Positions 22,981-41,191 of a DNA stretch of 64,000 nucleotides are shown here, piece after piece (positions within the stretch are counted from its first letter, which is position 1; each line of letters opens with the position of its first letter). The stretch spans positions 248,001 through 312,000 of the forward strand of contig NZ_SAXA01000001.1 in assembly GCF_004122035.1 (NCBI RefSeq), given 5' to 3'. Under the pieces are notes generated by a model. It was given only the letters and a program-made list of their open reading frames with translations. It had not been told where the DNA came from and searched no databases. The stretch comes from Ancylomarina salipaludis (GTDB lineage: Bacteria; Bacteroidota; Bacteroidia; Bacteroidales; Marinifilaceae). The position numbers and the translations under genes are program-made.

Positions 22981-24060
22981 ATGAGCAGATATTCGAAAAT
23001 TATAGGATCAGGTCGATGTATTCCTGAAGTTGAAATAAAAAATGAAGTTTTCCTGCAAAACACATTCTACGATGTAAACGGTGAGTCTACCGGGAAAACA
23101 ACACACGAAACACTCGACAAATTCTACAACATTACCGGTATTGCAGAGCGACGCTATGCTCGCGAAGATCAAAAAGCTTCGGATCTGGCTTATATCGCGG
23201 CAAGCAGAGCGATTGAATCATCAGGAATTGATAAAGAAAGCCTCGACTACATTTTGGTCGCTCATAATTTTGGTGACGTATCGGCCAATACGGTTGCACC
23301 ACAGTTAATGCCAAGTCTGGCCGCACGTGTGAAACACTTACTCAAAATCGAAAATCCAAAAACTGTAGCCTATGATATCCTTTTTGGATGCCCGGGTTGG
23401 GTCCAAGCCATGATTCAAGCCAACTATTATATCAAATCAGGCGACGCCCAAAGAATTTTGGTGATTGGTGCTGAAACCCTTTCCAGAGTATGCGATCCGC
23501 ATGACAGAGATAGTATGATATATGCCGATGGTGCTGGAGCAACCCTACTCGAGGCGGTTGAAAGTAAAAATGAAACCGGGATTTTATCTCATTCTGTAAG
23601 AACAGATACCTTAAATGAAGCTTATCTGTTATGGTCAGGAGCCTCACACAATCCCGATTTTCAAAACCGAGATCGTGATTTCTATATCAAGATGCATGGG
23701 CATAAAATTTATGAATACGTTATTTCGAACGTTCCACAATTGGTAAAAGAATGTATTGAAAAAGCAGGACTGGAATTAAAGGATATTAAGAAGATATTGA
23801 TTCATCAAGCTAACGAAAAAATGGATGAAGCCATTGCAAAACGTCTGTTCCGATTATATGGCGAACGCCAGATTCCCGATGATATCATGCCAATGATCAT
23901 TAAAAAAATGGGAAATAATTCTGTTGCAACAGTCCCTATTCTATACGATATGATTGCCAAAGGAGAACTTGAAGGGCATCAGTTTACAAAAGGTGACCAT
24001 ATGGTATTTGCTTCGGTAGGTGCCGGCATGAGTATAAATGCTTTCGTCTATCAATTTTAA
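22981..24060 (+). CDS. Ketoacyl-ACP synthase III family protein (FabH-like)
   Basis: Thiolase-fold condensing enzyme. The 359 residues carry the KAS III catalytic triad: Cys 137 in FGCPGW, His in HQANEKM (about 276) and Asn in GNNSVATVP (about 311). It is longer than housekeeping FabH (about 320-335) and has an insert near residues 30-55. It could therefore make a special branched or long acyl product rather than start normal fatty-acid synthesis. No ACP, ketoreductase or other fatty-acid gene is adjacent. It is a single-gene unit with its own terminator and a leader of about 160 bp after the previous one. Confidence 0.88.
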   Translation: MSRYSKIIGSGRCIPEVEIKNEVFLQNTFYDVNGESTGKTTHETLDKFYNITGIAERRYAREDQKASDLAYIAASRAIESSGIDKESLDYILVAHNFGDVSANTVAPQLMPSLAARVKHLLKIENPKTVAYDILFGCPGWVQAMIQANYYIKSGDAQRILVIGAETLSRVCDPHDRDSMIYADGAGATLLEAVESKNETGILSHSVRTDTLNEAYLLWSGASHNPDFQNRDRDFYIKMHGHKIYEYVISNVPQLVKECIEKAGLELKDIKKILIHQANEKMDEAIAKRLFRLYGERQIPDDIMPMIIKKMGNNSVATVPILYDMIAKGELEGHQFTKGDHMVFASVGAGMSINAFVYQF

Positions 24061-24299: not shown

Positions 24300-25652
24300 A
24301 TGAATTTTCTTTTCGATCTTTCGACACTTTTCTGTCTGGTTAGTTCAATCGCCTTTGCTATAATCCTCCTATACAGCACCCTCGTTTTTTATTTCGAAAA
24401 CGAAAAGAAAGCCGCAATCAGAGCACTTTTAATTGGCTTGCTGCTTCCCATCCCCTATTTCGTTGCCTGGTATTACAATTACAACATTTTGGCCCTGATT
24501 CTATTAATCGATTTAATTCTAACAGGACTCTTGTTTATCTATCCTTTTAAAACACCTCAAAATATTTGTGACGAAACGCCCTTAAATAAAATTGATGAGA
24601 GAAATATCATGTTTTCGCGCAATGAATTGATAGTTGGTAGTGAAAACTATAAAAATTACTACCTCAAATATCCTGAAAAAGAAGAACTCGATAATGCTTT
24701 CAGAAAAGAGGCTGGCTTATGTTCTGAAAAATCTTTATTCAATCATTCTTTTGCATTTGCTGCAACACATGCCAGCTTCTTTGCCATTGAGCAATTCAAA
24801 AAAGCAGTTGATGGTGCAGTCAACCCATCACGAACAAAAACAGATTCTGAAAAGATGAGTTCTTTCCTAAAAGCATGGGGTAAGAAACTCGGTGCCTTAG
24901 ATATCGATTTCTGTGAGCTTAAAGACTACCATTTTTATTCACACAAGGGACGTGGAGACGAATATGGAAATGAGATTCACAACTCACACAGCCATGCAAT
25001 AGCCTTCACCGTTGAGATGAATGAAGAAATGGTTCAATCTGCTCCACAGGCATCCATTGTGATGGAGTCAGCACAACAATATCTCGATTCAGGACGTATT
25101 GCCATTCAAATTGCTGAATTTTTAAGACATCTGGGCTACTCAGCACGAGCACATATCGATGGCAATTATCAGCTTGTTTGTCCACTGGTTGCCCGCGATG
25201 CCGGTTTGGGTGAAATTGGTCGTATGGGATTATTAATGACTCCAAAACAGGGGCCCAGAATTAGACTTGGAGTGGTTACAACAGAATTCCCCTTAAAAAC
25301 CAAAGATCGAAAAAAACTGAACCACATGCTTGACTTCTGCTTAAACTGCAAGAAATGTGCTGATGTTTGCCCCAGCAAATCCATTTCGTCAGACGCTCCA
25401 AAGATGGTTGATGGTGTAAAGAGATGGCAAATCAATTCCGAATCCTGTTTTACCTATTGGTGTAAAGCGGGTACCGATTGCGGTCGCTGTATGGCAACAT
25501 GTCCCTACTCGCATCCTGACAATTTGTTGCATAATGCAATCCGATTTGGAATTAAACATTCGCCACTCTTCAGACGTATTGCTGCACCTTTGGACGACTT
25601 CTTTTACGGGCGTAAACCCAAATCAAAAAAACTACCTGGGTGGATGAATTGA
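24300..25652 (+). CDS. Membrane-anchored reductive-dehalogenase-like corrinoid/iron-sulfur protein
   Basis: 450 residues. About 1-85 are three membrane helices, with no twin-arginine signal. The rest matches the RdhA/QueG-type fold. RDAGLGEIGRMGLLMTPKQG and a following VVTTEFPL are RdhA-like. Two 4Fe-4S motifs follow: C347-x2-C350-x2-C353-x3-C357-P and C383-x10-C394-x2-C397-x3-C401-P. The end (LFRRIAAPLDDFFYGRKPK) also resembles dehalogenases. Known RdhA enzymes remove halogens from organohalides with a corrinoid; respiratory ones use a Tat signal plus a separate RdhB anchor. Here the anchor is fused at the N-terminus, and no RdhB or maturation gene is nearby. Substrate unknown; epoxyqueuosine reductase is unlikely given the membrane part. 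Confidence 0.78.
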   Translation: MNFLFDLSTLFCLVSSIAFAIILLYSTLVFYFENEKKAAIRALLIGLLLPIPYFVAWYYNYNILALILLIDLILTGLLFIYPFKTPQNICDETPLNKIDERNIMFSRNELIVGSENYKNYYLKYPEKEELDNAFRKEAGLCSEKSLFNHSFAFAATHASFFAIEQFKKAVDGAVNPSRTKTDSEKMSSFLKAWGKKLGALDIDFCELKDYHFYSHKGRGDEYGNEIHNSHSHAIAFTVEMNEEMVQSAPQASIVMESAQQYLDSGRIAIQIAEFLRHLGYSARAHIDGNYQLVCPLVARDAGLGEIGRMGLLMTPKQGPRIRLGVVTTEFPLKTKDRKKLNHMLDFCLNCKKCADVCPSKSISSDAPKMVDGVKRWQINSESCFTYWCKAGTDCGRCMATCPYSHPDNLLHNAIRFGIKHSPLFRRIAAPLDDFFYGRKPKSKKLPGWMN

Positions 25653-34651: not shown

Positions 34652-37600
34652 TTACTTCAATGTCTTTTTAATAGTCTCCAAATTCTCCTTTAATTCTTTA
34701 TCCATAGGCTTAATTTCTAAAGCCTTTTGATAATAGAATCGAGCAATAGACAAATTGCCATCTTTAAAAGCAGCATTCCCTTTTTTCGTTAACAGATTGA
34801 ATTCTTCATCAATCGCTTCCTGCTTTTGTATCTCAATTGCCTGTTCAATTTCTTCCAATTTATCATCGATAAGACTTTTATCTGTTGCTATAGGCATCGC
34901 CTTATGATAATAGTGGCGAGCTACAGAAAAATTCTTTTTAGCAAATTCGTCATCCCCTGATTTTAGCAATCGCTCAAATTCTTCACGCTCTTTTTCAGAT
35001 CTGAAAGCCGATTTCAATTTTTCAATTTCAACAAGCTTCTCTTTCGGATAATCACGTTCAAAAATATCAAGGGCCTTTTTATAATAAGCCTTTGCTTTCC
35101 CCAAGTATTTGCCTTTTATTGCTTCATCCCCCTTATCAACAAAAGCTTTATAATCCTGCTCCTTTTTCTTCAATAGGTTATCTCCAAATGCATTTGAATT
35201 TTCAACAAACAGTTTATCTTCATCTGATTGCATGCTAGCTTTTAATCTCATCTCAATCTCTTCAAGCTGAGATTTTATGTAAGCATCGTCAGGTTTTATT
35301 TTCTGTGCCAATTTATAATGATGTCTGGCTAAACTGTATAATTCCTTTTTAAAGTGAGAATCAGCAATTGCCAGTGTCTCCTTAAATTCTTTTTCAATTT
35401 GACTGTTTTTTCGATCCAATTTTATCTGCTTAGCCAATGATGCATCAATTATTGCAATCTGATTTTTTGGATAAACTTCTCTCGATTTCAACTTAAGTGC
35501 TGATAAATAGGCCTCTTTTGCAGATTTCAAATCCTTGTCTGCAAATAATTTATCAGCTCTGCTTAGGATAGTCTCATATTGTTTTGAAAGCTCCAATTGC
35601 TCCTTCGCTGCTACTTTCTCTTCAGCTAATTTTTCATTAACAAGAGTAATCTGTTTCAATGTGTACTCATCATTCCTATAAATTTGAATCGCAGCTTCAT
35701 ACTTTCCTAAAGCATCTGAATACTTTTCGTTCCTAAAGAATTTATCCCCTTCACTGATGAAGGAGCGAAATTTTTTCTCCAAAATAGCTTTCTTCTTGGA
35801 TAACAATTCATCTGCTTTAGCTTGACTTTCTTTTTCAGCAATTAAAGTCTGTATTTTTAACAGTTGAGCTGTGGCATACTGATCCCCACTCTTATATTCT
35901 AATGCTTGTTTGTAATTCGTTGTTGCCTGCTTAAAATCATCCTTATTCAAAGCATCATCAGCCAGAGAAATTGCCTTTAAATAGTTCTCTTCGAGTACTT
36001 TCTTTTGATTTTCCTCTTTGAGCTTTTTATCGGCCAAACGGGACATTTCGTCCAAAGCTAATTTTGCACTTGCAATTTGTTCTTTAGGATAATTCTCATT
36101 AGGCTTTAAATCTATAGCTGACTGGTAATCTAAAATTGCCTTTTCATAATCCTTAGCTTTAAATTTCTGATCAGCCTGATTAATGAATGCACCATATTTC
36201 TCATCAAGCATTTTCTCTTCAGCCTTAATTCGACTGGCTTCAGCAATTAAACCTTCCATTTTTTTCAATTGCAATATTGGGTACGATTCTTCAGGTTTCA
36301 TTACAGAAGCACTCTTATAACTTTTCCGGGCTGACACATAGTCTTTAGCTTGTAATTGTGAATCTCCAGTCGTTATAAGCACCTCATATTTAGCCTCAAA
36401 TTCTTTCCGGGCTGTTTCCTGATGCAGCTCCTTAGCCAGCAGTTCTTCAATCTTGTTAAGTTGCTCTTTCGGATATTTTTCGTTGGGTTTTATCTCCAAA
36501 GCGTTTCTGAAATTATCACGTGAATCAAAATACTTTTTCGCAACCAAATTTTTATCCCCTTTTGCAATCAGATCATTATACTTTTGAGATAATAATTTTA
36601 GTTCGCGTTCTTGTTTTTGCTTTTCTTCCTCTTCGTGTTTTTTATCTATCTGAGCTTGCTTAGCTTTTATCACTTGTTCCTTTAAATATTCAGCTTTAGG
36701 TTTAAAACCTAAGGCCTGCTCATAATTCCCAAGGGCCTTATCAAAATCTCCTGAATTCATTTGAGAATCGGCTAAGGCAATCAGATCTGCATATCTTTTT
36801 TCACGAGCATTTTTCTCTGCCAAAATTTTTGCCTGATGCGCCATCAAACTCTCAATCTTTACCAACTGCGCTTTTGGATGAGTCTCATTGGGTTTTAACA
36901 CCAATGCCTGCGTATAATTTGTTTTTGCTAAAACATATTCGCCCTCTTTCAACTGTGTATCACCTAGATCAATAAATTTCGCATATTTTTCATCTAATTC
37001 TTTTTGTTGTAGCAAGTTTGCAGCCAGTTCTTTTTCCTGAGCAATCGCCTCATTAATTTTTTGGATCTGTGATTGAGGATAAGCTTCTTCAACATTCAAT
37101 TCAAGAGCCTTAGTATAAGAACCCAAAGCCTCGTTGTAATCTTTCTTTTTAAACTGACTATCAGCCAACTTAATGATTCTATCATACTCAGCCCTTAATG
37201 CCTTTTTCTCAGCCATCAGTTTTTCATTTGCGGCTTTCATTTGTTTCAGATAATCTAGTTTATTATCAATCTCCTGAATCTGATTTTGTGGATAAACTTC
37301 ATCTGATTTTAATTTAAGAGCGGCTGTATAATGCGATTTTGCAGTCTCATATTGTTTCAAATCAAAGGCTTCGTCTGCCGATTCTATAAGTTTTGCATAT
37401 TGTTCATTTAGAACTTTCTCTGCAGCCAATCGCCTTGCTTCATTTTCAGCATTTTGTTTCTGTTCTAATTCAAGAGCTTTTATCTTAGCTAATTGCTCCT
37501 GAGGATATGCTTCTACCTTCTTAACTTCTAGAGCCGATTGATAATTTATTTTAGCTTGTTCATAATTATTCTCTGCAAAAAACTTATCTGCGAGATCAAT

Positions 37601-38359
37601 CAAAGCCTTATATTTCTCATCAACAAGGCGCTGTGCCTCAAGCTGCCCTTTTTGTTTCAAAAGAATATCGTCAATTTTTAAAATCTGAGTTTTCGGGTAT
37701 TCTTCATTGGGCTTTAATTGACTTGCTTCAGTATAAAGCGATTTAGATTCAATATAATTTTTCTTTTGAAATTCACTATCCGCATTTTTAATGGCCAAGT
37801 TGAATGCCGTATTTACACGTGCCAACTCAGCCATATAAGCTTCCTGCTTCAATCTGGTTTCTTTCTCAATGCGTTTAAGCTCTGCTTCAATCTCTGTCTG
37901 AAACGATAAATCCGTTTCTATCAAATCTGTTTCTCTATTGTACATGATCATACCTATGGGCTGATCAAAAACAGATAAATCGATGCCTGGAAAAAAACGA
38001 AACAATTCTATTGAAAACTTACAGGGAGGAAAACGACTATCTCTTTCCAAAACCTCCTGAGGTACATATGTTGAAACACTCACTCGCTTTGTTACAAAAT
38101 CAGTTTTTGAGAACTCAAAAATATAATCATATCCAAAATCCAATTCATATGAGAACTTACCATTTTTCGAAATATCTCTCACTCCCACCTGTTGAGAATC
38201 TTTATATAAAGTCACTTTTACATTACTAAGATCTCCTTCATTAACAGTTACATTACCTTTTACAGTACATTTTTCCTGGGTAAATCCAGAAATTGAAAAA
38301 AAACTGAGTATGACAATCAGAAAAGCAATATGCTTATATTTTAAAATAATAGTCCTCAT
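34652..38359 (-). CDS. Giant exported protein with 16 TPR-like/coiled-coil repeats
   Basis: 1235 residues. A signal peptide (about 10-27) precedes a regulatory-like beta domain (about 30-105: CTVKGNVTVNEGDLSNVKVTL). From about 185 to the end come 16 repeats of roughly 45-80 residues. Each has a TPR-like helix pair of the form Y..LI..AD..F..K.Y..AK..Y..AL.LKP.E.YP..Q..KI; in the longer ones a Lys/Glu/Ala-rich coiled-coil linker follows. The motif is remarkably uniform, so the repeats probably spread by duplication. A periplasmic or outer-membrane scaffold is inferred. No catalytic motif is visible. It heads a unit with the SpmAB fusion and has its own -7 element. Confidence 0.85.
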   Translation of the reverse strand: MRTIILKYKHIAFLIVILSFFSISGFTQEKCTVKGNVTVNEGDLSNVKVTLYKDSQQVGVRDISKNGKFSYELDFGYDYIFEFSKTDFVTKRVSVSTYVPQEVLERDSRFPPCKFSIELFRFFPGIDLSVFDQPIGMIMYNRETDLIETDLSFQTEIEAELKRIEKETRLKQEAYMAELARVNTAFNLAIKNADSEFQKKNYIESKSLYTEASQLKPNEEYPKTQILKIDDILLKQKGQLEAQRLVDEKYKALIDLADKFFAENNYEQAKINYQSALEVKKVEAYPQEQLAKIKALELEQKQNAENEARRLAAEKVLNEQYAKLIESADEAFDLKQYETAKSHYTAALKLKSDEVYPQNQIQEIDNKLDYLKQMKAANEKLMAEKKALRAEYDRIIKLADSQFKKKDYNEALGSYTKALELNVEEAYPQSQIQKINEAIAQEKELAANLLQQKELDEKYAKFIDLGDTQLKEGEYVLAKTNYTQALVLKPNETHPKAQLVKIESLMAHQAKILAEKNAREKRYADLIALADSQMNSGDFDKALGNYEQALGFKPKAEYLKEQVIKAKQAQIDKKHEEEEKQKQERELKLLSQKYNDLIAKGDKNLVAKKYFDSRDNFRNALEIKPNEKYPKEQLNKIEELLAKELHQETARKEFEAKYEVLITTGDSQLQAKDYVSARKSYKSASVMKPEESYPILQLKKMEGLIAEASRIKAEEKMLDEKYGAFINQADQKFKAKDYEKAILDYQSAIDLKPNENYPKEQIASAKLALDEMSRLADKKLKEENQKKVLEENYLKAISLADDALNKDDFKQATTNYKQALEYKSGDQYATAQLLKIQTLIAEKESQAKADELLSKKKAILEKKFRSFISEGDKFFRNEKYSDALGKYEAAIQIYRNDEYTLKQITLVNEKLAEEKVAAKEQLELSKQYETILSRADKLFADKDLKSAKEAYLSALKLKSREVYPKNQIAIIDASLAKQIKLDRKNSQIEKEFKETLAIADSHFKKELYSLARHHYKLAQKIKPDDAYIKSQLEEIEMRLKASMQSDEDKLFVENSNAFGDNLLKKKEQDYKAFVDKGDEAIKGKYLGKAKAYYKKALDIFERDYPKEKLVEIEKLKSAFRSEKEREEFERLLKSGDDEFAKKNFSVARHYYHKAMPIATDKSLIDDKLEEIEQAIEIQKQEAIDEEFNLLTKKGNAAFKDGNLSIARFYYQKALEIKPMDKELKENLETIKKTLK

Positions 38360-38410
38360 TAATTGAATCTGATATTATTGCGATATTTCTTTGAAACCGT
38401 AGTTTAGAAA

Positions 38411-38418
38411 CAAAAGTA
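38411..38418 (-). promoter_or_regulatory. -7 element for the 16-repeat protein/SpmAB operon
   Basis: The minus strand reads TACTTTTG, matching TAnnTTTG, about 51 nt before the ATG at 38359. Confidence 0.55.
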
Positions 38419-38553
38419 AAGAAATATAGCTAGTATTTATAGAGCGTCCAAAATTCGAATAGAGACTTTGATACGAAACTGTAATAATCAACGTCTATTT
38501 CAAGATAAAAGTATGTATTCTGAATTCAATACATCATAATTTCGCCAACCAGA

Positions 38554-38592
38554 TAAAAAAATCCTGAGATTCAATATGGAATCTCAGGATTT
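38554..38592 (-). terminator. Terminator after the NACHT gene
   Basis: A perfect 14-bp stem (AAATCCTGAGATTC at 38559-38572 with its complement at 38579-38592) around a 6-nt loop. On the minus strand it ends in a T-run (38554-38560). It lies about 50 bp after the stop of the NACHT gene. Confidence 0.9.
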
Positions 38593-38641
38593 ATTCAAAC
38601 AATTAATTAGTCCCTGATTTAAATATTATCTTATATCGTTA

Positions 38642-41191
38642 TTAATCATTCAGGATTTTTACAAGAGATTCTGCTTTTTTTGCTTGCAAAATCTGATCGC
38701 GTTCTTTCAAACATAAATTTTCTTTAGTCGTTTCGCCCCAAGCATTATAATACTTAGCCATTTTGGTCAATAAGCTAACCTTACAGAAATCATATCGTGC
38801 GAATTCACTTATTGCAAATGCTCTGTTCGAATGTCTTTCCTGAAAGTCTCTATTCCCATCTTCGAAATAAATTCCGGCTAAAAAACTTTTGAAGAAAATC
38901 TGAACAGGGTAAGCCTTTGAACTAATTAAGCTATCATTGCAAAACTCTAATTCTTGTACCTGACTGGCAGACAATTTCATTCCCAGTTTACTCTGAGCTA
39001 CCAATTTATAGGCTCTTAATAATTTATGATTCGAGAAATGAGCCTTTATTGGTAACTGATCGTAAAACAATTCAGCATCATCAATCAATTGAATAACTTT
39101 ATGATACGATTGCATGTAGAATAAAGCATTGCAAACCAACACCTCAAATTCACCACTCCAACTCTCGTATCTATCCCCAACCTGACAATAGGCCATCTGA
39201 CGGTAATAAAACACTTTTAATAATTCAATATCGTTGCTCTTACCCGAGATGTGATTGTAGAATAATATGCTGGTAAAACGCAAAGCAATTGAATAAGCTG
39301 AACAACCTGAATTGGGTTTTGTTTCAACTAATAAATTATAATACTTATCTGATAATTCTTGTTCCAATGACATTAAAGATGTCATCAATAACAAGCTTAA
39401 AGATTTAATTCTAACAGACTCATCGGCGTTGGTCTCTGATATAATTTCAACAACTTTAGAAAAATCACCACACAAACGATTCAAATTACCCGAAAGCGCA
39501 AGCATAAACTCAACAGAACGCGTTCCGGATGCATATGTTTTAATTAAATCAATTTTACTGTCATCCATGTTTGTGATTACAGTGGTCAAAATGTCGGTAA
39601 CTGCACTGCTGGTTAAAGTCCCTTCATTTAATTCAAAAAAACGAGACAAAGATTCATAATTATCAGATTCGACTGCAATGCTAAACAGTTGTGCAATTAA
39701 TCTATCTTTTAGTTCAAATTCCTGATACTCCTCTTCAATTTGTTTAAACAGATCAAAGCTAATACCCCCATTGTTCTCAATCAGTTCTTTAACCAATAAA
39801 ACTTCAAAAAGTTGCTCATTGTATATCTTTACAAATTTGCAATAACCATTGTATTCATTAACCGAAACATACTCTGATATTAAACCATAGCTCAACATCT
39901 CTTCGTAAGCATAGTAATAATTACCCGCTGTTTTAAGATGAATAGGTAAGATTGATTTCAATTCCATTTTTTTTACGGAATGTGAATCTTTACCATACTT
40001 CAGAATCTTTAAAATTGCTTTTAGAATATCAATTTTTTCCTCAGAATAGCGTGAATAATAAATCTTGTTCTTTAAAAATTCATTAATAAGCTTATATCCG
40101 TCGTTAATATCACTCTTTTTATTGGGAGAATATGTTTTAATAAACAGTTCTAAGAAAAAGGGATTTGATATCGTATTTCGCTGATAGTAATCAAGATTTT
40201 CAACCTTCAATTCATAGAAAAACTGCTGATTGATCGTCTCATCAAAAACATGCTGAATTTCAAAACCATTTAGGGGTGGAAAGTTTCTTTTATCTTCCTG
40301 ATCAAGATCTAAATCAATTTCATACCAGGCATCATACAGGCTATTTTCACGCTGTATAAATGGGAGTACAAATTTTTCCCAGGTTGAAGTTCTTGAGGTT
40401 AAGATCAACTTCATGTTTTTTGAATCCTTACGATTGGCTACAAACTGGTTCAACTGTAAAAACAATCGCTCCAATTTTGTATTGTCATAACTAACCTCAT
40501 CTAAGGCATCCAGTATTAAAATAATTTTTCCTTCGCAAGTTTTGGGCTTATCCAAAAAGTGCTTCAGGTATGTTTTCGATGTAGAATTCAATTGCTCTTC
40601 TAACCAACGCTCAAGCATAAAATCGCTATTTAAACAATTGATCATGAAAGTCGCATTAAAAAATAAGATCACATCCTTATTTTGAGAATCCTGACTCACT
40701 CTTTCATACCATTTAGCAAGCATTGTTGATTTTCCAGCTCCGCCAGGTGCAACAAAGCTCAATGCCATTTTATCTGACTGAAGGAAATTATGAATTCGGT
40801 CTTCACCAATCTTTCTTGTTGCTACAGATTTGAAGGGAATACCTGATTGGCCTTTTATTAAATTATAAGCATCACTACTCAATTCAAAAGCGCGTTTCTG
40901 AAAGGCTTCCCAAGTGGTTGGAATATTACCTTCCCCCTTTTCTTCAGGAATATAATTCGATTGAAAATCATTCCACGACTTGTAACTAACATAGTTTGCC
41001 AGTAAGTCTAAAGTAAATTTTGAAGGTGCTGAAGGCGATTTTAATAAACCAAAAAGTCGGCGTATAGTTGTCGCACTAATTCGTCCGCCTGTAGCGTCAC
41101 AAACAATTTCAGCTAAAGCTTCACAGTCCTTATTATAAGCAAGCTCTTGACCAAACTTTTTTAGGATTTCTTTCTTTAGATGTTCTAACAT
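38642..41191 (-). CDS. NACHT-type STAND NTPase with N-terminal helical module and helical C-terminus
   Basis: 849 residues. About 1-80 form a Bacteroidota helical module (RISATTIRRLFGLLK, then TLDLLANYVSYKSWNDF), probably a helix-turn-helix-like or oligomerisation unit. The NTPase domain has Walker A GGAGKST (150-156), Walker B IILILDALDE (223-232, NACHT-style D-A-L-D-E) and sensor Arg in LTSRTS (about 267). From about 380 to the end the protein is all-helical, TPR-like. There is no signal or membrane segment. STAND/NACHT proteins are ligand-triggered switches, and several bacterial NACHT proteins defend against phage; no separate effector is seen here, so the N-terminal module or oligomerisation may be the output. 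A regulatory role is the alternative. Confidence 0.8.
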   Translation of the reverse strand: MLEHLKKEILKKFGQELAYNKDCEALAEIVCDATGGRISATTIRRLFGLLKSPSAPSKFTLDLLANYVSYKSWNDFQSNYIPEEKGEGNIPTTWEAFQKRAFELSSDAYNLIKGQSGIPFKSVATRKIGEDRIHNFLQSDKMALSFVAPGGAGKSTMLAKWYERVSQDSQNKDVILFFNATFMINCLNSDFMLERWLEEQLNSTSKTYLKHFLDKPKTCEGKIILILDALDEVSYDNTKLERLFLQLNQFVANRKDSKNMKLILTSRTSTWEKFVLPFIQRENSLYDAWYEIDLDLDQEDKRNFPPLNGFEIQHVFDETINQQFFYELKVENLDYYQRNTISNPFFLELFIKTYSPNKKSDINDGYKLINEFLKNKIYYSRYSEEKIDILKAILKILKYGKDSHSVKKMELKSILPIHLKTAGNYYYAYEEMLSYGLISEYVSVNEYNGYCKFVKIYNEQLFEVLLVKELIENNGGISFDLFKQIEEEYQEFELKDRLIAQLFSIAVESDNYESLSRFFELNEGTLTSSAVTDILTTVITNMDDSKIDLIKTYASGTRSVEFMLALSGNLNRLCGDFSKVVEIISETNADESVRIKSLSLLLMTSLMSLEQELSDKYYNLLVETKPNSGCSAYSIALRFTSILFYNHISGKSNDIELLKVFYYRQMAYCQVGDRYESWSGEFEVLVCNALFYMQSYHKVIQLIDDAELFYDQLPIKAHFSNHKLLRAYKLVAQSKLGMKLSASQVQELEFCNDSLISSKAYPVQIFFKSFLAGIYFEDGNRDFQERHSNRAFAISEFARYDFCKVSLLTKMAKYYNAWGETTKENLCLKERDQILQAKKAESLVKILND

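Follow-up and report, generated by a model that had tools for sequence, protein, structure and literature searches.

The gene and its neighborhood

The gene at 24300-25652, on the forward strand of the window (the whole 64,000-nucleotide stretch of Ancylomarina salipaludis DNA analyzed here, whose numbering is used throughout), starts with ATG and encodes a 450-residue hybrid, that is membrane-fused, reductive dehalogenase homolog. Nine other genomes of the family keep the full-length single frame at 65-89% identity, and it is intact in more distant genomes as well, which marks it as a genuine gene rather than a chance open frame. A preliminary description of this DNA had proposed an open reading frame with three N-terminal membrane helices and two 4Fe-4S motifs, lacking a Tat signal, an adjacent rdhB and a maturation gene, and all of this was borne out. 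The helices fall at residues 2-32, 36-58 and 62-80 according to both the AlphaFold model and hydropathy, and the cysteine spacings are exactly those described. The N-terminal tail has no Lys or Arg, and so no Tat motif. None of rdhB, rdhC and rdhT was found among the genes around the hybrid, which looks like a stand-alone gene that needs no partner.

Proteins of this kind are not new. "Hybrid putative reductive dehalogenases" with three N-terminal transmembrane (TM) helices and an ExE motif, lacking a Tat motif and rdhB, were described from Marinilabiliales and other phyla (Atashgahi 2019, PMC6797604), and the published list includes a 450-residue protein from Ancylomarina sp. M1P (WP_125029802). 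The window protein is such a hybrid, of a kind already reported from the same genus; the A. euxinus M1P gene is 87% identical to it. The earlier proposal of a self-anchored RdhA variant is supported, but the variant is not a new one.

Directly upstream of the hybrid gene is a KAS-III-like gene (22981-24060), and downstream are genes for a Na+/solute symporter and recR. A block of PQ-loop, chalcone-isomerase-like, KAS-III and hybrid genes is kept in all 15 Marinifilaceae loci compared (two of them from the same genome), with a gap of 137-387 bp ahead of the hybrid gene in these loci. Since the neighbors differ outside the family and the gaps are of this size, the arrangement is taken as shared synteny and not as an operon. 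A functional link between the hybrid and its KAS-III neighbor was considered and rejected, both because of the different neighbors outside Marinifilaceae and because the KAS-III matches in two hybrid-bearing genomes (G030 and G037) are only FabH-level. In G004, G036 and G438 the best KAS-III match reaches only 51-56% identity; in G004, a genome with no hybrid, it is a 54% paralog in another context, which leaves no clean empty site. Elsewhere in the window, on the reverse strand (34652-41191), a gene for a 1235-residue TPR-repeat protein adjoins one for an 849-residue protein with an NPHP3_N-type NTPase match.

Family and fold of the catalytic domain

The corrinoid/Fe-S catalytic domain comprises residues 91-450 (24570-25649, forward strand, as are all features of the gene). 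Among profiles, the window protein matches TIGR02486 best (E 4.7e-43), with 148.2 bits against a curated cut-off of 160.35 that two other hybrids exceed (169.0 and 165.8 bits). The QueG profile TIGR00276 gives 31.7 bits, below its cut-off of 200. The search against RdhA and QueG profiles that had been suggested therefore favors RdhA, and no non-corrinoid 4Fe-4S family came out on top. A search of PDB sequences returned NpRdhA, SmPceA and DhPceA first, with QueG far behind (phmmer E-values of 6e-39 for 4ras and 7e-29 for 8q4h), and a PHROGs search gave no match.

An AlphaFold2 model built from 85 aligned homologs, leaving aside two reference rows of the plasmid collection, has a mean pLDDT of 96.0 and a pTM of 0.92, and supersedes a run with 12 close homologs only (pLDDT 59.5). 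The best fold matches of the model are corrinoid RdhAs, with VIA-align Z scores of 37.4 for NpRdhA (4ras_B), 35.9 for DhPceA (8q4h_A, 347 residues) and 32.8 for SmPceA, against about 15 for QueG. Foldseek agrees, its top fold matches being the solved corrinoid RdhAs. VIA-align also paired residues 1-64 with helices of seryl-tRNA synthetase, and these pairings were dismissed as ordinary helix matches. The window protein is a member of the RdhA family with an RdhA fold, and in all probability it holds a corrinoid cofactor. The first 4Fe-4S motif, C347-x2-C350-x2-C353-x3-C357-P, lies at 25338-25373 and the second, C383-x10-C394-x2-C397-x3-C401-P, at 25446-25505; the eight cysteines are all invariant among the 85 aligned homologs.

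Catalytic and menaquinone-site residues

Residues were counted in an alignment of 79 catalytic domains, including 53 hybrids, 11 Tat-type RdhAs, three catabolic RdhAs and six QueG proteins. Y261 (25080-25082) is the catalytic tyrosine, aligned by HMMER to SmPceA Y246 and NpRdhA Y426, and is present in 53/53 hybrids, 11/11 Tat-type RdhAs and every other group. R322 (25263-25265), aligned to SmPceA R305 and NpRdhA K488, is likewise found in all hybrids and all Tat-type enzymes; the position is Lys in catabolic RdhAs and Phe in QueG.

The C-terminal helices (25512-25607) carry a set of residues that resembles the menaquinone site of a respiratory enzyme. In the cryo-EM structure of the Desulfitobacterium hafniense PceA2B2 complex, menaquinone lies near K489, H495, R499, D515 and Y520 of the PceA C-terminal helices (PMC10624902). 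H411, R415 and D432 of the window protein align with H495, R499 and D515, the K489 position is occupied by H405, and the counterpart of Y520 is most plausibly Y436, judging from the alignment. All five residues are invariant in the 53 hybrids, which come from several phyla, and H411 and Y436 also occur in all 11 Tat-type RdhAs, but in none of the three catabolic RdhAs or six QueG proteins. Because the hybrids all keep these residues, menaquinol is a likely electron donor, although some residues of the pocket are also conserved in quinone-independent bacteria and hence are not exclusive to quinone users (PMC10624902). The window genome encodes tatC, menA and cbiB.

Three further residues set the hybrids apart. 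H211, D287 and C294 occur in 53/53 hybrids and in 0/26 of the other sequences; D287 and C294 are in the active-site loop A284-HIDGNYQLVC-P295 (25149-25184). D287 lies within the loop that holds SmPceA Asn272, a position equivalent to QueG Asp130 (PMC4646009), and both MAFFT and HMMER set D287 opposite Asn272. By ungapped spacing to the AGLG motif it is N289, not D287, that is equidistant with Asn272, leaving the register ambiguous. The "DYH" at residues 209-211 was also considered as the D100-Y101-H102 motif of QueG, and was judged a coincidence because D209 is present in only 36 of the 53 hybrids and the true Tyr equivalent is Y261.

Membrane anchor and its kinship to RdhB

TM1 (residues 2-32, a helix in the model, 24303-24395) is followed by the ExE..A motif E33-N-E35-K-K-A38 (24396-24413) in the TM1-TM2 loop, which is predicted to be cytoplasmic. 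TM2 (residues 36-58, 24405-24473) and TM3 (residues 62-80, 24483-24539) complete the anchor, and TM3 brings the chain back to the ExE side. E33, E35 and A38 are invariant in 40 hybrids, and 76 of 80 non-redundant hybrids have E.E..A; among the other four are N-terminally truncated ORFs.

Profile comparison indicates that the membrane region of the hybrid is homologous to RdhB. A profile built from 12 RdhBs finds PceB of 8q4h (E 7.5e-8), which verifies the RdhB set. When 40 hybrid N-termini were aligned with these RdhBs by hhalign, they matched over 43 columns with a probability of 95.4 and an E-value of 1.8e-8, pairing TM1 and the ExE motif of the hybrid with TM2 and the ExE motif of RdhB. In addition, the sole match of the hybrid-anchor profile among all PDB sequences, up to an E-value of 10, is PceB (8q4h_C), at the ExE motif; its E-value of 0.49 is weak when taken alone. 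Single sequences were less informative: the first 90 residues by themselves had no match among PDB sequences, and no single RdhB sequence reached the cut-off of a Pfam or NCBIfam family.

The register is one helix off, such that TM1-TM2 of the hybrid correspond to TM2-TM3 of RdhB, the start of TM2 aligns with the start of RdhB TM3, and RdhB TM1 has no counterpart. The hybrid has an additional helix behind the RdhB-like pair, which returns the chain to the ExE side. Because of this helix, the ExE loop and the catalytic domain share one side of the membrane in the hybrid, as they do in PceAB.

Predicted orientation in the membrane

Orientation was predicted from the positive-inside rule, which is statistical. 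In 12/12 RdhBs the ExE loop contains 0-1 Lys plus Arg and the opposite face 6-8, so the rule places the ExE loop of RdhB outside, as in the PceAB cryo-EM structure, and can be regarded as calibrated. It was applied to 73 hybrids with three clear helices, after removal of near-duplicates at 90% identity. These are the hybrids nearest to the window protein and come mostly from Bacteroidota; Desulfobacterota, the starting point of the 2019 set, are not represented. Their Lys plus Arg content averages 3.03 for the ExE loop and 2.93 for the 15 residues that follow TM3, compared with 0.40 for the TM2-TM3 loop and 0.34 for the N-terminal tail. The ExE/catalytic side is the richer one in 73/73 hybrids; when this side is represented by the ExE loop only, it has more in 69, the same number in one and fewer in three. 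No Arg-Arg pair precedes TM1 or TM3 (N-terminal tail and TM2-TM3 loop) in any of the 73.

The hybrid ExE loop is thus not predicted on the P-side, where RdhB has it, the charge bias being the reverse of that in all 12 RdhBs. From this bias, the catalytic domain of the hybrids is very probably cytoplasmic. The possibility of cytoplasmic facing had been raised in the preliminary description, and as a prediction it is now supported.

About half of the hybrids listed in 2019 were called "exoplasmic" by TMHMM (PMC6797604). The table gives "exoplasmic" for M. fragile and "cytoplasmic" for M. breve (PMC6797604), although the two hybrids are 91% identical and have the same charge pattern. The contrast suggests that the published mixture of orientations is likely to be noise of single-sequence prediction.

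Distribution and relatives

The hybrids form one branch of the tree (SH-aLRT 99), apart from the Tat-type, catabolic and QueG groups, with the order among groups unresolved. The tree had been proposed earlier as a check, and it does separate the hybrids, although their monophyly is partly by design because they were gathered by similarity to the window protein. Hybrids from Chloroflexota, Gemmatimonadota, Acidobacteriota, Fibrobacterota, Calditrichota, Ignavibacteriota and Chlorobiota show 58-62% identity to the catalytic domain of the window protein. Two Tat-type RdhAs inside one genome, by contrast, are 27-31% identical. Together with the invariance of H211, D287 and C294, this uniform constraint across phyla hints that the hybrids may all act on one conserved physiological substrate.

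Six genomes of the genus group were compared: three (G001, G002 and G003) have both the hybrid and a Tat-type RdhA with RdhB, two (G000 and G005) have the hybrid alone, and G004 has neither. In the window genome, and by the same search in A. euxinus M1P (G005), no RdhA-type gene turned up other than the hybrid and a QueG-like one. Corrinoid reductive dehalogenases have been reported in five of six Ancylomarina genomes (PMC12908670); the number agrees with the 5/6 found here to have a hybrid, though the genome set may differ.

Several other RdhA-like genes were seen in the relatives. Complete Tat-type rdhA followed by rdhB occurs at loci from the same genus or family (L014 to L023), and the Tat-type RdhAs of the window's relatives make up two distinct sets, both absent from the window genome. 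The Tat-type paralogs in sister genomes carry RR.F motifs. One genome, G016, encodes a 418-residue RdhA homolog (L013:5561-6817) that has no Tat signal or membrane helices and branches with the catabolic RdhAs (SH-aLRT 99), but lacks the NAD(P)H-reductase part. The same genome encodes a very divergent RdhA-like protein of 324 residues (L024:4960-5934), with an end branch of 3.4 changes per site. A compact RdhA-like clade of about 316-345 residues is found in other Bacteroidota families (L027 to L032; the L031 ORF is longer and its start uncertain). Its members have no Tat signal or membrane helices, keep the RdhA Tyr and Arg, and branch outside the catabolic, Tat-type and hybrid groups. Prolixibacteraceae JC049 (G438) has two over-cut-off RdhA matches (L161 and L165) about 1.4 kb apart on one contig, and carries a hybrid besides these.

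Proposed function and alternatives

The reading that we favor, with some confidence, is that the hybrid is an inward-facing, menaquinol-fed corrinoid reductase anchored by an RdhB-like module and unable to conserve energy as PceAB does. In this reading, a two-[4Fe-4S] corrinoid reductase of the RdhA type is fused to an anchor related to TM2-ExE-TM3 of RdhB plus one extra helix. This anchor module would be inserted opposite to that of PceAB, with its N-terminus outside and both the ExE loop and the catalytic domain on the cytoplasmic side, in which case the enzyme would need neither Tat export, an export chaperone nor RdhB. Menaquinol bound between the anchor helices and the C-terminal helices (H405/H411/R415/D432/Y436) would be the likeliest electron source, with electrons passing through the two clusters to cob(I)alamin, and Y261 and R322 may support protonation of the substrate. 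The hybrid would generate no proton motive force, because quinol oxidation and substrate reduction would share the inner face. A role as an electron sink, or in detoxification or salvage, would then be more likely than that of a respiratory terminal reductase. An organohalide is a reasonably probable substrate, and another substrate is possible.

The residues that suggest menaquinol are common to PceAB, as are the ExE motif and the anchor homology, and these would also fit an outward-facing, energy-conserving enzyme of organohalide respiration in which RdhA and RdhB are fused and the catalytic domain is on the P-side. The "exoplasmic" half of the 2019 table (PMC6797604) points the same way. 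That arrangement is nevertheless improbable, as the ExE/catalytic side is the positive one in every hybrid tested, there is no Tat signal and no Arg-Arg pair in the N-terminal tail or TM2-TM3 loop, and the published calls differ between the 91% identical M. fragile and M. breve proteins. Moreover, we know of no export route other than Tat for a pre-folded two-cluster corrinoid domain.

The predicted cytoplasmic orientation would also suit a membrane-tethered catabolic or detoxifying dehalogenase that is fed by ferredoxin or another soluble donor and retains the quinol residues as structural leftovers. Catabolic RdhAs are cytoplasmic, and the lifestyle of Marinilabiliales is fermentative (PMC6797604). 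However, leftovers would not be expected to be invariant, and H411, R415, D432 and Y436 are present in 53/53 hybrids across several phyla; in addition, Arg replaces the Lys of catabolic enzymes in the hybrids, which make up a clade of their own. A soluble donor is thus unlikely. By analogy with QueG, the hybrid may instead be a corrinoid reductase devoted to one conserved substrate that carries no halogen, such as an epoxide or another activated C-O bond. The high identity across seven other phyla, relative to that between Tat-type enzymes of one genome, and the hybrid-specific H211, D287 and C294 favor this, as does the place of D287 in the loop with SmPceA Asn272 and QueG Asp130. Yet the register of D287 is ambiguous, since N289 shares the distance of Asn272 to AGLG, and the hybrids retain in full the Tyr-Arg pair linked to dehalogenation, of which QueG lacks the Arg; a dedicated enzyme of this kind also seems unlikely.

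A broader view, which we put forward tentatively, is that the inward-facing, menaquinol-fed hybrid is an inside-out version of PceAB, in which one chain facing the cytoplasm acts as a menaquinol:acceptor oxidoreductase with a corrinoid, occurs in several phyla and is dedicated to one conserved, possibly non-halogenated substrate. If so, genomes with the hybrid alone would not be organohalide respirers in the PceAB sense. Ancylomarina and Marinifilum have been listed as candidate organohalide respirers in genome surveys (PMC12908670), and the reading of such surveys would change for hybrid-only genomes, where an inward-facing enzyme would not conserve energy like PceAB. The cataloguing of hybrids since 2019 has raised the questions of their function and of how "exoplasmic" members could leave the cytoplasm without Tat. 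To the second question the charge analysis suggests an answer, as export is predicted for none of the hybrids examined. With the residues named here, both the quinol dependence and the orientation become directly testable.

Comparison with known systems

The window protein shares with the published hybrids (PMC6797604) its length of 450 residues, three N-terminal TM helices, ExE motif, two Fe-S motifs and lack of Tat and rdhB, and the genus is the same. The 2019 paper reports a mixed C-terminal orientation, whereas all members tested here are predicted to be cytoplasmic. It also drew the kinship to RdhB from the ExE motif (PMC6797604), a kinship supported here by a profile alignment with a shifted register. 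Beyond that paper, the present analysis adds RdhB homology by profile, a uniform predicted orientation, the conserved Tyr-Arg and quinol residues, and a model like PceA and NpRdhA (Z 33-37).

Respiratory RdhAs have a Tat signal and a separate, adjoining rdhB, as in the rdhAB pairs of the relatives (L014-L023), and both are absent from the hybrid. With D. hafniense PceA2B2 (8q4h, PMC10624902) the hybrid has in common the fold (Z 35.9), the Tyr-Arg pair, both clusters, the menaquinone-site residues and the ExE anchor, but it is one chain rather than two, lacks the Tat signal, shows a reversed charge bias and has H405 in place of K489. Catabolic RdhAs are soluble and have Lys at the K488 position, while the hybrid has three TM helices and Arg322 and belongs to a separate clade. 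The catabolic NpRdhA (4ras) resembles it in catalytic fold (Z 37.4), the Tyr and the absence of Tat; unlike NpRdhA, the hybrid is membrane-anchored, has Arg for Lys488 and no NAD(P)H-reductase domain, and keeps H411 and Y436. QueG shares the class III corrinoid core, the conserved Tyr and the 4Fe-4S ligands, but differs in its profile (TIGR00276, 31.7 bits) and in having no equivalent of Arg322, and the window genome has a separate QueG-like gene.
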